Origin: Oceanospirillaceae bacterium
GTDB taxonomy: Bacteria > Pseudomonadota > Gammaproteobacteria > Pseudomonadales > Balneatricaceae
Assembly (NCBI GenBank): GCA_013373085.1
Contig: JABXIM010000206.1
Span: 1-32,493, forward strand
Direction: 5' to 3'
Length of the DNA: 32,493 bases
Part shown: positions 6,667 through 9,757 of the stretch, one piece after another
How positions within the stretch are numbered: position 1 is the stretch's first letter
Layout of the letters: each line of letters opens with the position of its first letter
Notes under the pieces: generated by a model
The model's input: the letters and a program-made list of their open reading frames with translations, nothing else
Told to the model about the DNA's origin: nothing
The model's database searches: none
Position numbers and translations under genes: made by a program

Positions 6667-6682
6667 TAGTCGAATTGAAAGT
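6629..6682 (+). repeat. 14-bp direct repeat across the mlaA stop
   Basis: GTCGAATTGACAGT at 6629-6642 and GTCGAATTGAAAGT at 6669-6682 differ by one base and are exactly 40 bases apart. The first copy lies in the end of mlaA, the second in the gap before the phosphatase gene. Confidence 0.6.
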
Positions 6683-6746
6683 TCATGGTAATGGGCGTAG
6701 TGTGCAAGCTCATGAACAAATGGCTATCCCGTCTGCAGGCTGCGCT

Positions 6747-7919
6747 ATGAGTCACTCCTGTCACCGCATTCTGCTGGTGGAGTCGGATAACGATATTGTC
6801 GATCAGGTGTTCGAGCTGAGCGAGCAGGTCGAGTCCTTCCGGCTGCAGATCCTGCTGGCGGCGGACTCCGACCGGCTGTCCGACATGCTCGATCACTTCG
6901 ACTTTTCGCTGGTTATCGTCAATGTGCAGCGTCTTTCGGCTGGAACCAGCCTGACCGACCTTTGCATTCGTGTGCACCCCAAGCCTGTTCTGGTGCTGAT
7001 GCCCGATCTGGATGCGAGTGCGCTGTTGGCGGGTCTGCGCGCTGGCGCCAGCGATATTTTCAGCTACCGCTGCCTGGAACAGGAGGCGCAGGCGTTCGTC
7101 GCGGCGGTGTCCCGGCTGTTGAGTCGCGCCGCCCAGCTCGAGGCGATACCCCGCTATCGCGAGACACTCGAGCGCAGTCTCGAGGAGCTGCGCTCCGATC
7201 AACTGGCGGCGCAGCAGGTGCAGCAGAACCTTCTGCCGCCGACGTCACAGACCATTGGCGGCATACGTTTCGATTACGAGCTCACGCCGTCGCTGGTGCT
7301 GAGCGGCGATTTCGTCGATGTCGCGCCGCTCGACAGTAACCTGACGCTGTTCTATCTCGCCGATGTCTCGGGGCACGGCGCTTCGTCGGCGCTGGTAACG
7401 GTGCTGTTGAAAAACATGACCAGTCGCGTGCAGCGCGCCCACCGCCACAATACCGAGCTGACAGATCTTTCGCCGGCCGCTGCGCTGCATCTGCTTAACC
7501 GGGAGCTGCTGGATACCGGTCTCGGCAAGCACTTTACAATCTTTGCCGGTGTTCTCGACGGGCGCACGTCTCGACTCAAATACGCGGTCGGCGGGCATCA
7601 CCCCATGCCGGTGCTGCGTCAGGGTGGCGACGTCGTGTTTCTTGAAGGTCGTGGGATGCCGGTCGGGTTATTCGACGAGCCCTTCTTCGATGAGCGGGAA
7701 ATCGAGCTGGCGAGCGGCTTTTCGCTGACGCTCTTTTCCGATGGCGTTTTCGAAGTCATGTCCGGCGGCTCCCTGGCGGAGCGCGAGCAGCAGTTGATGG
7801 ACCTGGTTGCCTCGGGTCTGACGCAGCCGCAGCGGCTGCGTGAGCATCTGCTGGGGGATAGCGATTGTCCGGATGACATTGCAATCATGACCTTGTGCCG
7901 GGGCACTGCCAATGCGTGA
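6747..7919 (+). CDS. rssB: RssB-like regulator: degenerate receiver plus PP2C phosphatase
   Basis: The 390-residue protein has a receiver-like domain (about 1-125), a coiled-coil linker (about 126-165) and a SpoIIE/PP2C phosphatase domain (about 170-390). The phosphatase metal-binding motifs are all present: SGDFVD at 186-191, DVSGHG at 206-211, then FSDG and a C-terminal DDIAIM, so it should be active on a phosphoserine partner. The receiver appears dead as a phosphoacceptor: the third strand reads VIVNVQ with Asn59 where Asp is expected, and the usual Lys after strand 5 is missing (DIFSYRC). The overlapping STAS gene downstream is the obvious substrate. Gene order and domain layout match what I recall of Pseudomonas RssB. 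The start at 6747 keeps the receiver intact; the 24 residues possible upstream from a TTG look non-coding. Confidence 0.85.
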   Translation: MSHSCHRILLVESDNDIVDQVFELSEQVESFRLQILLAADSDRLSDMLDHFDFSLVIVNVQRLSAGTSLTDLCIRVHPKPVLVLMPDLDASALLAGLRAGASDIFSYRCLEQEAQAFVAAVSRLLSRAAQLEAIPRYRETLERSLEELRSDQLAAQQVQQNLLPPTSQTIGGIRFDYELTPSLVLSGDFVDVAPLDSNLTLFYLADVSGHGASSALVTVLLKNMTSRVQRAHRHNTELTDLSPAAALHLLNRELLDTGLGKHFTIFAGVLDGRTSRLKYAVGGHHPMPVLRQGGDVVFLEGRGMPVGLFDEPFFDEREIELASGFSLTLFSDGVFEVMSGGSLAEREQQLMDLVASGLTQPQRLREHLLGDSDCPDDIAIMTLCRGTANA

Positions 7920-8397
7920 GGGATCGATATTTTTCGCCCGAGAGGGCAGCAGTTACGTGCTCAAGTTCGTGGGCGAGGTGCGTCTGACGCTCTGTACCAG
8001 CCTGGATCGTCACATCGAGCAGATTCTGGCGGTCGGGGATATTGAGCATATTCTCGTGGACCTGACCGAAACCGATACCATCGACAGCACCACGCTGGGG
8101 CTGATCGCCAAGCTGGCGGTGTTTGCCCGGCGCCTGTCGCTGGAGCAGCCGACGCTGGTGTCGACCAACGAGGATATCACCCGAATCCTGATGTCCATGG
8201 GCTTCGACCGGATATTTCTGTTGCTCGATAGTCTGCCAACCAGTCTTGTGGATCTTCATCGCGTGCCATTCGTGCAGGAGTCGGAGGTATCGGTGCGTGA
8301 GCGCATTATCGATGCGCATAAGGTATTGATGAGCCTTAACGAGTCCAACCGCGAAGCCTTTGTCGACCTGGTATCTGCGCTCGAGTGTTACCCCTGA
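7912..8397 (+). CDS. STAS-domain anti-sigma factor antagonist (RssC/HsbA type)
   Basis: The 161-residue protein has an N-terminal STAS domain (about 5-110) and a helical tail (about 115-161). The phosphorylation-site region reads DTIDSTTLGLI, with Ser59 at the position of the regulatory serine in SpoIIAA-type proteins. In that switch, a kinase phosphorylates the serine, a PP2C phosphatase removes the phosphate, and the unmodified form binds an anti-sigma factor. The reading frame overlaps the PP2C gene by 8 bases, so translation is coupled and the two proteins should be made together. No RsbW-type kinase gene is in this window, and the phosphatase lacks a kinase domain, so the kinase must be encoded elsewhere. 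Which sigma or anti-sigma factor is targeted cannot be read here. Confidence 0.88.
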   Translation: MREGSIFFAREGSSYVLKFVGEVRLTLCTSLDRHIEQILAVGDIEHILVDLTETDTIDSTTLGLIAKLAVFARRLSLEQPTLVSTNEDITRILMSMGFDRIFLLLDSLPTSLVDLHRVPFVQESEVSVRERIIDAHKVLMSLNESNREAFVDLVSALECYP

Positions 8398-8420
8398 CGC
8401 CTTTTTGGGTTGCCTGTTCG

Positions 8421-8449
8421 CTTTTTAGGAATTCTTCCTATGGTATAAC
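8421..8449 (+). promoter_or_regulatory. Extended -10 promoter with overlapping palindrome
   Basis: TGGTATAAC at 8441-8449 is an extended -10 element. A perfect inverted repeat TAGGAA-TTC-TTCCTA fills 8426-8440, directly upstream, and overlaps the weak -35 region (CTTTTT at 8421-8426). Such placement suits an operator. Transcription would start near 8456. Confidence 0.5.
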
Positions 8450-8455
8450 CGGCCA

Positions 8456-8617
8456 GGATCGCTAGACTGGGTACCTGTAGAGCGAAGGCACAAGGAGGTG
8501 GCGGTGCTTCGACAGGAAGCCGGTTCGTTCTTTCATTGCCCAGGGAGTGGTGCAATGACCGGCATGGAAGCTGGAAGGGGGCTCGATGGCAGGATGCTTG
8601 AGGGCCCTTTGTTTTTT
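8456..8617 (+). ncRNA. Candidate CsrA/RsmA-sequestering small RNA (RsmZ/CsrB-like)
   Basis: The predicted transcript of about 162 bases contains seven GGA motifs (starting at 8456, 8494, 8515, 8544, 8566, 8573 and 8592), far more than chance. Several fall in hairpin loops. GAA(G)GCAC/GTGCTTC (8484-8510) carries AAGGAGG in its loop. TCATTGC-CCA/TGG-(T)-GCAATGA (8533-8558) has loop GGGAG. CCGGC/GCTGG (8559-8574) has loop ATGGAA. The terminator hairpin loop holds AGGA. GGA in loops is the recognition feature of CsrA/RsmA, and CsrB, RsmY and RsmZ act by sequestering that protein. It has its own promoter and terminator. The alternative is an mRNA leader for the short frame at 8504. The call is by eye only. 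Confidence 0.55.
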
Positions 8618-8710
8618 ATGACCTTTTGTTTTGTGTTAAGTGTTTTGTCTGTTTTGTCTGTTTTGTCTGTAGAGGTGCGTTCGGAGTTGACAGCCGGTCA
8701 GGTCCCGTAA
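8504..8710 (+). CDS. Possible 68-residue peptide, doubtful
   Basis: A GTG at 8504 follows a near-perfect ribosome site (AAGGAGG at 8492-8498, 5-base spacing), and the frame runs 68 codons. The product would have one hydrophobic segment containing a VLS-VLS-VLS-VLS run encoded by tandem 9-mers, then a short polar tail. Against it, the frame crosses an apparent intrinsic terminator at 8575-8617, and the AAGGAGG sits in a loop of the candidate small RNA. I recognise no family. It may be fortuitous, or an overlapping peptide made on read-through. Confidence 0.2.
   Translation: MLRQEAGSFFHCPGSGAMTGMEAGRGLDGRMLEGPLFFMTFCFVLSVLSVLSVLSVEVRSELTAGQVP
8575..8617 (+). terminator. Intrinsic terminator of the candidate small RNA
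   Basis: AAGGG pairs with CCCTT and CTCGA with TTGAG (one G-U pair), separated by a symmetric GG/GG internal loop. An 11-base apical loop contains AGGA. The stem is followed by TGTTTTTT. Confidence 0.6.
8642..8668 (+). repeat. Three tandem copies of GTTTTGTCT
   Basis: Three perfect 9-bp units lie in tandem, preceded by a degenerate partial copy. The length would be prone to change by replication slippage. The unit is a multiple of three, so changes would not break the overlapping frame. Confidence 0.9.
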
Positions 8711-8754
8711 TTCATCACGGGCGGTTCTCCAGATCTTAGGCTGTGGTAAAAATC

Positions 8755-8781
8755 AGGCCCGCAATATGCGGGCCTTTTTTT
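8755..8781. terminator. Bidirectional terminator between the sRNA region and tal
   Basis: AGGCCCGC / GCGGGCCT form an 8-bp stem around AATAT. On the plus strand seven T residues follow. On the minus strand the stem is followed by GATTTTTA. It lies 20 bases past the tal stop codon and would end the dusA-tal transcript. Confidence 0.88.
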
Positions 8782-8800
8782 GTCTGGTTGGCGCCGCTCG

Positions 8801-9757
8801 TTACTGCATCTCCAGCAGAAGTTGCTCCAGCTTGACCTGATCGACGGCGAAGTTGCGAATGCCTTCAGCGAGCTTTTCGGTCGCCATGGCGTCTTCATTC
8901 ATGTCCCAGCGGAAGCCGGTTTCGTCCAGTTGGCTGTTGGCGTCGTCGCTGGCGGAGCTCTCGGGGTCGAGGCGCCGGCTCAGCGGCTCCTGAGACTGCT
9001 CCAGTTCCTGCATCAGTGCCGGGCTGATGGTCAGTCGGTCGCAGCCCGCCAGCGCCTGGATCTCGCCGATATTGCGGAAACTCGCGCCCATCACCACGGT
9101 GTCGTAGCCGTGCTGCTTGTAATAGCGGTAGATACGGCTGACCGACTGCACGCCGGGGTCCCGGTCGCCGCTGAAATCGGCGGCGGCGTCGCGTGTTTTG
9201 TGCCAGTCGAGGATGCGCCCGACAAACGGGGAAATGAGGTAAACGCCCGCATCGGCACAGGCCTGCGCCTGGGCAAAACCGAACAGCAGAGTCAGGTTGC
9301 AGCGAATACCCTCGCGTTCCAGTACTTCGGCGGCGCGGATGCCTTCCCAGGTGGAGGCAATCTTGATCAAAATGCGGTCGTGTCCAATGCCGGCCTCATC
9401 GTAGAGTCCGATCAGTTTGCGGGCGCGGGCGATGGTCGCGTCGGTGTCGAACGACAGGCGGGCGTCGACTTCGGTGGAAACGCGTCCCGGTACCAATTGC
9501 AATATTTCCCGTCCGATCAGTACCGCGAGCTTGTCGGTCATGTTGTCGAGCTGGGTCTGATCGCTTCCGCCGCGGGTTCTGGCCCAGTCGCGGGCCTGCA
9601 GCAGCAGAGGCCGGTACAGGGGGTTCTGGCTGGCCTTGAGCAGCAGTGAGGGGTTGGTCGTCGCATCCACCGGGGCAAACTGGCGAATGGCTTCGATATC
9701 ACCAGTGTCGGCGACGACGGTGGTCATCGACTTCAGTTGTTGCAGTTGGCTTGGCAT
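8801..9757 (-). CDS. tal: Transaldolase (TalB type)
   Basis: Transaldolase moves a dihydroxyacetone unit from sedoheptulose 7-phosphate to glyceraldehyde 3-phosphate in the non-oxidative pentose phosphate pathway, in the cytoplasm. The 318-residue protein aligns end to end with E. coli TalB (317). It shows TTVVADTGD near the N-terminus, [12 protein letters not shown] at 31-42, and the Schiff-base lysine Lys132 in [11 protein letters not shown]. The STEVDARLS and [10 protein letters not shown] segments are also present. The frame is open far upstream, but that part overlaps dusA and is not coding. The ATG at 9757 is preceded by GAAGGA and matches the family N-terminus. It lies 59 bases downstream of dusA on the same strand, so the two are probably cotranscribed. 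Confidence 0.97.

Follow-up and report, generated by a model that had tools for sequence, protein, structure and literature searches.

Between a STAS gene and tal, the stretch of DNA analysed here (the window, 32,493 nucleotides) carries an intergenic region with repeated GGA triplets, and the question is whether this region encodes a small RNA of the CsrA-sequestering class. An earlier note had proposed a CsrA/RsmA-titrating RNA at 8456-8617. Judged by comparison of sequences, 8475-8617 encodes a real structured RNA, and we consider it highly probable that it is a Csr/Rsm-type sRNA gene of about 143 nt, with its own dyad-activated promoter, whose product would titrate CsrA. The original proposal is supported in that stems and GGA sites are kept in relatives, and fails in that the RNA matches no Rfam Csr/Rsm family.

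Fold and conservation of the RNA

The predicted sRNA (8475-8617, forward strand, as are all its parts; six GGA) was delineated from a nine-sequence alignment, its structure, covariation and model matches, the start being placed from the -10 hexamer. It would fold into a junction and three hairpins and present GGA at up to five sites. The junction (8480-8530), which contains H1 and H2, is closed by stem P1 (8480-8486/8524-8530), in which 7/7 pairs changed on both sides; single-sequence folds of the window prefer another pairing in this region. Hairpin H1 (CAC-AAGGAG-GTG, 8489-8500, GGA 8494-8496) keeps its GGA in 69/73 non-redundant copies, and its helix is weaker in the nine-sequence alignment (73-78 percent of cells paired). 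The H2 region has its GGA at 8515-8517, not looped in this species; GGA is found in the region in 70/73 copies. Hairpin H3 (8533-8558), with GGA 8544-8546 in the loop, shows 6/9 pairs changed on both sides and GGA in 72/74 copies. In H4 (CCGGC-ATGGAA-GCTGG, 8559-8574, loop GGA 8566-8568) all cells are paired in the nine-sequence alignment, GGA is present in 72/74 copies and ANGGA in 68/74. The RNA ends with an intrinsic terminator (8576-8617) recognized from the fold: a stem at 8576-8610, a loop with GGA 8592-8594 (GGA in 65/73 copies), then a T run. A simple terminator scan does not list it. Just 3' of the RNA lies a short tandem repeat (8641-8669, TGTTTTGTC), the unit of which is absent from L008-L011.

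The seven GGA triplets originally counted in 8456-8617 are present (8456, 8494, 8515, 8544, 8566, 8573 and 8592). In the fold of this interval three are in hairpin loops (AAGGAG, 8492-8497; around 8544; AUGGAA, 8564-8569) and one in the terminator loop (8592-8594), as had been claimed; GGA 8515 and 8573 are outside loops. The interval folds better than its shuffles (z -3.10; 1/200 as good). For 8473-8616 the corresponding values are z -2.03 and 7/200, and the minimum-energy fold of this shorter segment taken alone pairs the H4 region differently, which disrupts H4. The number of GGA was rejected as evidence, being at chance level in shuffles: 6 in 8473-8616 vs a shuffle mean of 4.79 (P 0.33, 300 dinucleotide shuffles) and 7 in 8456-8617 vs 5.75 (P 0.32, 300 shuffles). 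GGA located in loops do exceed chance, with 3 vs 0.73 in 8473-8616 (P 0.027) and 4 vs 0.89 in 8456-8617, the coordinates first proposed (P 0.010; 300 shuffles each). Loop GGAs reach P 0.03 or less in 7/9 sequences tested, the nine including two versions of the window; L010 (P 0.07) and L011 (P 0.15) do not reach 0.05. The comparative evidence is stronger than these loop statistics.

Nine RNAs (window, L003, L004, L007, L008, L009, L010, L011 and L014), from loci chosen for carrying the RNA, were aligned by sequence alone; L004 and L009 being almost the same sequence, the nine are not independent. RNAalifold predicts 29 pairs, of which 13 changed on both sides. In a 39-pair model structure 18/39 pairs changed on both sides (0/500 shuffles as high, mean 8.5), with 89.2 percent of cells paired; when the structure is slid along the alignment, 2-7 such pairs remain. 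The pairs were counted on the sequences that had also served to derive the structures. A covariance model of the nine RNAs (R1) was searched in the family at E 0.1 or better, with strict filters under which weak matches may be lost. It matches 55/116 genomes and 11/16 genera, and the weakest listed matches (E 0.001 to 0.007) may be due to chance. Over the 64 loci fetched on those matches R1 gives 90 matches. The model-fitted alignment of the family matches, which leans towards the structure, has 39/39 pairs changed on both sides and 89.4 percent of cells paired. Among the 74 non-redundant copies left after removal of those 85 percent alike or more, 55 keep 5/5 GGA sites, 17 keep 4/5, one keeps three and one keeps two, the H2 site being counted as a region and not as a strict loop. 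A later covariance model built from the 90 matches (R2) is found at E 0.01 in 31/390 genomes of the order: 12 of this family, 8 of genus g42 and 11 elsewhere, the last being weak and, by eye, in good part chance. The earlier note had made its proposal depend on the conservation of stems and GGA sites in relatives, and both are kept.

The same comparison bears on two other readings of the region. The window contains a 70-codon open frame at 8498-8710, from which a small protein could be made, and coding conservation of this frame was to count against an RNA. The frame has two same-frame stops in Marinobacterium nitratireducens, the alignment has gaps of 1 and 2 bases, and changes follow base pairs; on these grounds the small ORF was rejected, and a protein is exceedingly improbable. 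That we are looking at a G-rich intergenic stretch which happens to end in a terminator would agree with a GGA number within that of shuffles, and is hardly credible in view of the family-wide matches, the covariation and the fixed promoter geometry described below.

Copies of the RNA can be clustered. Seven genomes of genus g11 matched by R1 have 2 to 7 neighbouring copies (L059, L040, L060, L061, L062, L075 and L078), the densest being seven copies within 1.2 kb beside tal (L059:2090-3270, G134:C33). Some copies or siblings are near 5S or 23S rRNA genes (L051, L142, L143, L149), and others are near contig ends (L067-L072, L096), perhaps for the same rRNA reason. A related-looking GGA RNA occurs in g42 genomes, for example at L105 (G396, where six places score equally and a seventh is matched too); it has a GACAGAG/CTCTGTC closing stem and two GGA hairpins.

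A predicted dyad-marked promoter and sibling RNAs

Upstream of the RNA we found a 15-bp dyad (TAGGAATTCTTCCTA, 8426-8440, forward strand), a proposed operator with its centre at about -42 from the predicted start, and a -10 hexamer, TAGACT (8463-8468, forward strand). In 9/9 syntenic loci a TARG-N7-CYTA dyad lies 37 bp before this preferred hexamer, which has 4-5 of 6 matches to TATAAT in all nine. A simple sigma-70 scan lists no promoter in 8300-8800. At the scale of the family, the N7 dyad is present within 110 bp upstream of 72/90 copies, vs 11 for the same half-sites at N6 spacing and 1 at N8; by the strict pattern 18/90 copies are without it, 16 in g11 tandem arrays and the others at L054 and L079. 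Of 71 distinct family promoters, 66 have a hexamer with A in its second and T in its sixth position either at +37 (25 promoters) or at +38 (41 promoters).

The extended -10 on which the original claim relied (TGG TATAAC, 8441-8449) does exist, and in the window it is closer to TATAAT than TAGACT is (5/6 vs 4/6). It is not conserved: over the nine loci its hexamer scores 5, 2, 3, 3, 4, 1, 1, 3 and 2, vs 4 or 5 in all for the preferred hexamer, and it was set aside for that reason. Because dyad and preferred hexamer are conserved in 9/9 loci and the other -10 is not, the RNA probably starts near 8475, and GGA 8456, which had been taken as the first of the RNA, is probably upstream of it and not transcribed from the preferred promoter. 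Given the higher score of the alternative element in the window, both may be used.

The dyad also served to look for other RNAs. Allowing up to two mismatches, TTAGGANTTTTTCCTAT occurs 9 times in this genome vs 3 for the backward control, and two of its three perfect matches head GGA-rich RNAs. The first sibling (G000:C4, L140) has 9 GGA and is beside a thiD-like gene with a TPP riboswitch; the second (G000:C77, L149) is near a 5S rRNA gene and has 4 GGA after the expected start. With the window RNA, the dyad-marked GGA RNAs of this genome would then number three. When the counterparts in relatives are counted, 19/19 sibling promoters have a hexamer at +37 (CATAAT, GATAAT, CATACT or GATACT) with 4 or 5 matches to TATAAT. 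The sibling structures are less supported than that of the window RNA (9/35 and 4/25 pairs changed on both sides). Of the weak R2 matches in the genus, six are sibling RNAs (L124, L126, L129, L130, L132, L133), and five were discarded by eye as coding ends or plain terminators and repeats (L123, L125, L127, L128, L131). Four of the five two-mismatch dyads of this genome were read (all except C149), and none is followed by a clear GGA RNA.

The third perfect match (G000:C97, L158) precedes a gene for a LuxR-like protein (NF041232, 23 bits, cut-off 700), in which no Pfam match was found. By eye the dyad is upstream of LuxR-type-looking genes at L158, L156, L191 and L192, L158 being the one searched, with this weak match; because the same dyad precedes such genes, the activator that binds it may control proteins too. 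At L188 (G002:C1:1043852 and 1044070) and L145 (G004:C95) the dyad is followed by a short stretch with 2-3 GGA. Since an ORF neighbouring L188 resembles, by eye, a Mu-like phage protein, a prophage may carry its own copy of the dyad there. A TPP riboswitch was found near the sibling RNA of the L140 kind in 4/5 loci scanned (L140, L134, L142 and L159, not L151).

The siblings and the pattern of conservation also weigh on a different mode of action, in which the RNA would act as an Hfq-type sRNA, base-pairing with target mRNAs through its GGA loops, or would have both functions. Its GGA-rich loops could indeed pair with CU-rich stretches and it ends in a U run; nevertheless five separate GGA sites are kept while the stems change, and the dyad also stands in front of RNAs that differ in sequence yet have GGA repeats in common, so that we find this mode of action quite unlikely.

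Sequestration of CsrA is the reading that we prefer. Membership of the RNA in the CsrA-sequestering class is very likely and rests on form: GGA hairpin loops, a dyad, hexamer and terminator with a T run, and a csrA gene in the genome are the class features recognized by sequence. The csrA gene (PF02599, over cut-off) is at G000:C194:138-293, and CsrA is found in 113/116 family genomes at E 0.001, in 112 of them over cut-off. The SELEX consensus of CsrA is RUACARGGAUGU, with the GGA in a hairpin loop that is mostly of six nt (PMC7652899). Elements similar to this consensus are found in the RNA, in hairpins such as CACAAGGAGGUG and GGCAGGAUGC, H4 and the terminator loop included. In the proposed mechanism, a promoter with a -10 and no clear -35 would be turned on when a dimeric activator occupies the TARG-N7-CYTA dyad near -42. 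Each GGA of the RNA would bind one face of a CsrA dimer; once made, the RNA would take CsrA away from mRNA leaders, and their expression would change. Transcription, CsrA binding, titration and the kind and identity of the activator are what we infer from the features above.

The half-site of the dyad resembles, we assume, the sites of NarL/FixJ-type regulators, and the activator would most likely be a response regulator of this type, of the GacA kind. The published GacA box is TGTAAGN6CTTACA (PMC8523701; PMC3171408). Searched as exact matches, this box is absent from 7 genus genomes and present in 11/116 family genomes vs 10 for the backward control. The best GacA/UvrY-like protein of this genome scores 172 bits vs a cut-off of 280, and the UvrY/GacA cut-off was passed by no genome among nine searched; one of the GacA-like regulators is encoded at G000:C213. 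With exact boxes at control level and a GacA-like score below cut-off, either a diverged GacA would read a diverged site or another regulator would have taken over.

The rssB-rssC neighbourhood

The gene order at the locus is mlaA (a name that we carry over as first given), an RssB-like PP2C gene, an RssC-like STAS gene and the RNA, followed on the opposite strand by tal and dusA. The RssB-like protein has a PP2C/SpoIIE domain (6675-7919, forward strand, start codon uncertain; PF07228 at 113.6 bits, NF045505 at 267 bits, cut-off 700). The RssC-like STAS protein is an anti-sigma factor antagonist (7912-8397, forward strand; PF01740 at 29.7 bits, NF045506 at 193 bits, cut-off 250). The convergent neighbour tal is transaldolase-like (8801-9757, reverse strand; an ORF with its start read by eye, its name likewise carried over) and adjoins the RNA in many relatives. 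A bidirectional terminator lies between RNA and tal (8755-8775). The locus had first been compared with Pseudomonas; its closest named relatives are instead those of Marinobacterium nitratireducens, M. sedimentorum, M. profundum and M. rhizophilum. The gene pair had likewise been likened to HsbR/HsbA, whereas the best curated models are RssB (NF045505) and RssC (NF045506), each below its cut-off, and none of the best models is labelled HsbR/HsbA. We take HsbR/HsbA to be PA3346/PA3347 of P. aeruginosa. There the PA3346/PA3347 pair is reported to affect rsmY and not rsmZ (PMC2904497), and the names HsbR/HsbA are used for the same pathway (PMC6482189).

The earlier note had also suggested a local functional link between the RNA and this pair. 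According to work on Azotobacter vinelandii, loss of rssB or rssC raises RpoS in A. vinelandii and P. aeruginosa, RssB and RssC are both proposed to be needed for RpoS degradation by ClpXP, and in A. vinelandii Gac-Rsm controls RpoS proteolysis via ClpXP levels (PMC12923157). A link between the RNA and RpoS turnover is thus possible and attractive; it is not obligatory, as M. stanieri and L057 indicate. In M. stanieri the RssC-like gene is present and the RNA is missing behind it, three model matches, one of them weak, being located elsewhere in the genome. At L057 the RNA is flanked by mlaA and tal, and the 3.1 kb examined contain no PP2C or STAS match. The RNA is behind a STAS match in five genera (g1, g7, g8, g12 and g16). 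Among RssC-gene loci of named genomes, 5/21 have the RNA behind the gene; the other 16/21 have no R2 match up to E 1, though for L021, whose sequence stops shortly after the gene, no judgement is possible. The gene pair as a necessary partner of the RNA is unsupported, given M. stanieri and the loci of the L057 type.

The position behind rssC raises the question of whether we are dealing with the 3' untranslated region of the rssB-rssC mRNA, made up of a terminator and accessory hairpins, where any CsrA binding would serve that mRNA only, or with an RNA processed from it. An mRNA 3' end is the source of RsmW in Pseudomonas aeruginosa. Downstream of the STAS stop (8397) no terminator was seen before the RNA begins, which makes read-through likely; this is weak, as the scan also misses the terminator of the RNA itself. 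Moreover, in several relatives no more than about ten bases separate the end of the STAS match from the dyad. Against this stand the RNA's own conserved dyad and -10 and the many copies, tandem arrays included, without a STAS match in the stretch examined; in particular, L057, L059, L061 and L075 carry the RNA beside tal in this way. We therefore judge an origin as mRNA 3' end improbable, and keep to an independent sRNA gene. As a more specific and tentative proposal, to which we give distinctly less than even chances, this family would run its Csr system through a different site: a TARG-N7-CYTA regulon (three RNAs here, arrays of up to seven elsewhere) under a regulator that is not an orthodox GacA, in which the rssB-rssC copy would couple CsrA titration to RpoS turnover via its own promoter and rssBC read-through.

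Comparison with known Csr/Rsm systems

At gathering thresholds Rfam has 0 matches in the window, and in 20 loci of relatives the RNA is unmatched, the matches to 5S rRNA, TPP riboswitch and tRNA being away from it. CsrB, CsrC, RsmY, RsmZ and RsmX, the families among which the RNA had been expected to find its match, are absent from the 12 matches obtained up to E 10 in 8350-8800. These low-score matches, none of a Csr family, were taken as chance. Most are on 8682-8800, around the bidirectional terminator; mir-1207, ctRNA_p42d and SECIS_3 overlap the RNA far below their gathering scores. Of the Csr/Rsm models, the one searched over whole genomes was RsmY (RF00195). Over 57 genomes it gives one match over cut-off (G055, from another family), and in this genome 4 sub-threshold matches elsewhere than at the RNA (best 25 bits, cut-off 57); 7/14 control genomes also give matches. 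Two siblings from M. jannaschii match RsmY below threshold (21 bits, gathering 57, E 0.18 and 0.25). A literature search found no earlier published prediction of such RNAs in this group, though one may exist.

In length the window RNA is presumably similar to RsmX (RF02144), RsmY and RsmZ (RF00166) of Pseudomonas. It shares with them several unpaired GGA and a palindromic activating sequence upstream (PMC2375449), and differs from them by its dyad, TARG-N7-CYTA instead of TGTAAG-N6-CTTACA, and by having no Rfam match. CsrB and CsrC of Marinomonas mediterranea, another marine gammaproteobacterium, are likewise predicted to sequester CsrA and have ANGGA/AGGA motifs and a terminator; they are expressed by RNA-seq and much decreased in ppoS and ppoR mutants. 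Compared by description, they differ in their read-count intervals of about 456 and 655 bases, their TGTAAGN6CTTACA box and their loci (PMC8523701). RsmZ1-7 and RsmY of A. vinelandii offer a parallel for many siblings per genome and for a control of RpoS proteolysis by Gac-Rsm; by description they are GacA-activated, and the part of the article available mentions no rssBC-adjacent gene (PMC12923157). E. coli RrA, RrB and RrF, encoded at rRNA operons and produced by read-through of these, contain GGA and are bound by CsrA in vitro (PMC8144298). The third RNA of this genome, near a 5S gene, is like them in place, whereas the Marinobacterium RNA has its own dyad and hexamer. P. aeruginosa RsmW is an example of an RsmA-binding RNA besides RsmY and RsmZ (PMC4950607).

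With these results Csr RNAs can be searched for by model in a marine group where Rfam detects none, either in the window or in the 20 loci of relatives examined, and siblings can be found through a promoter mark, independently of GGA counts. They also show that RNAs of this kind can expand into tandem arrays. That the RNA recurs behind rssB-rssC suggests a connection of Csr with RpoS proteolysis, one for which Azotobacter offers independent genetics (PMC12923157). The unusual dyad poses a testable question, namely which regulator would govern Csr in these bacteria.
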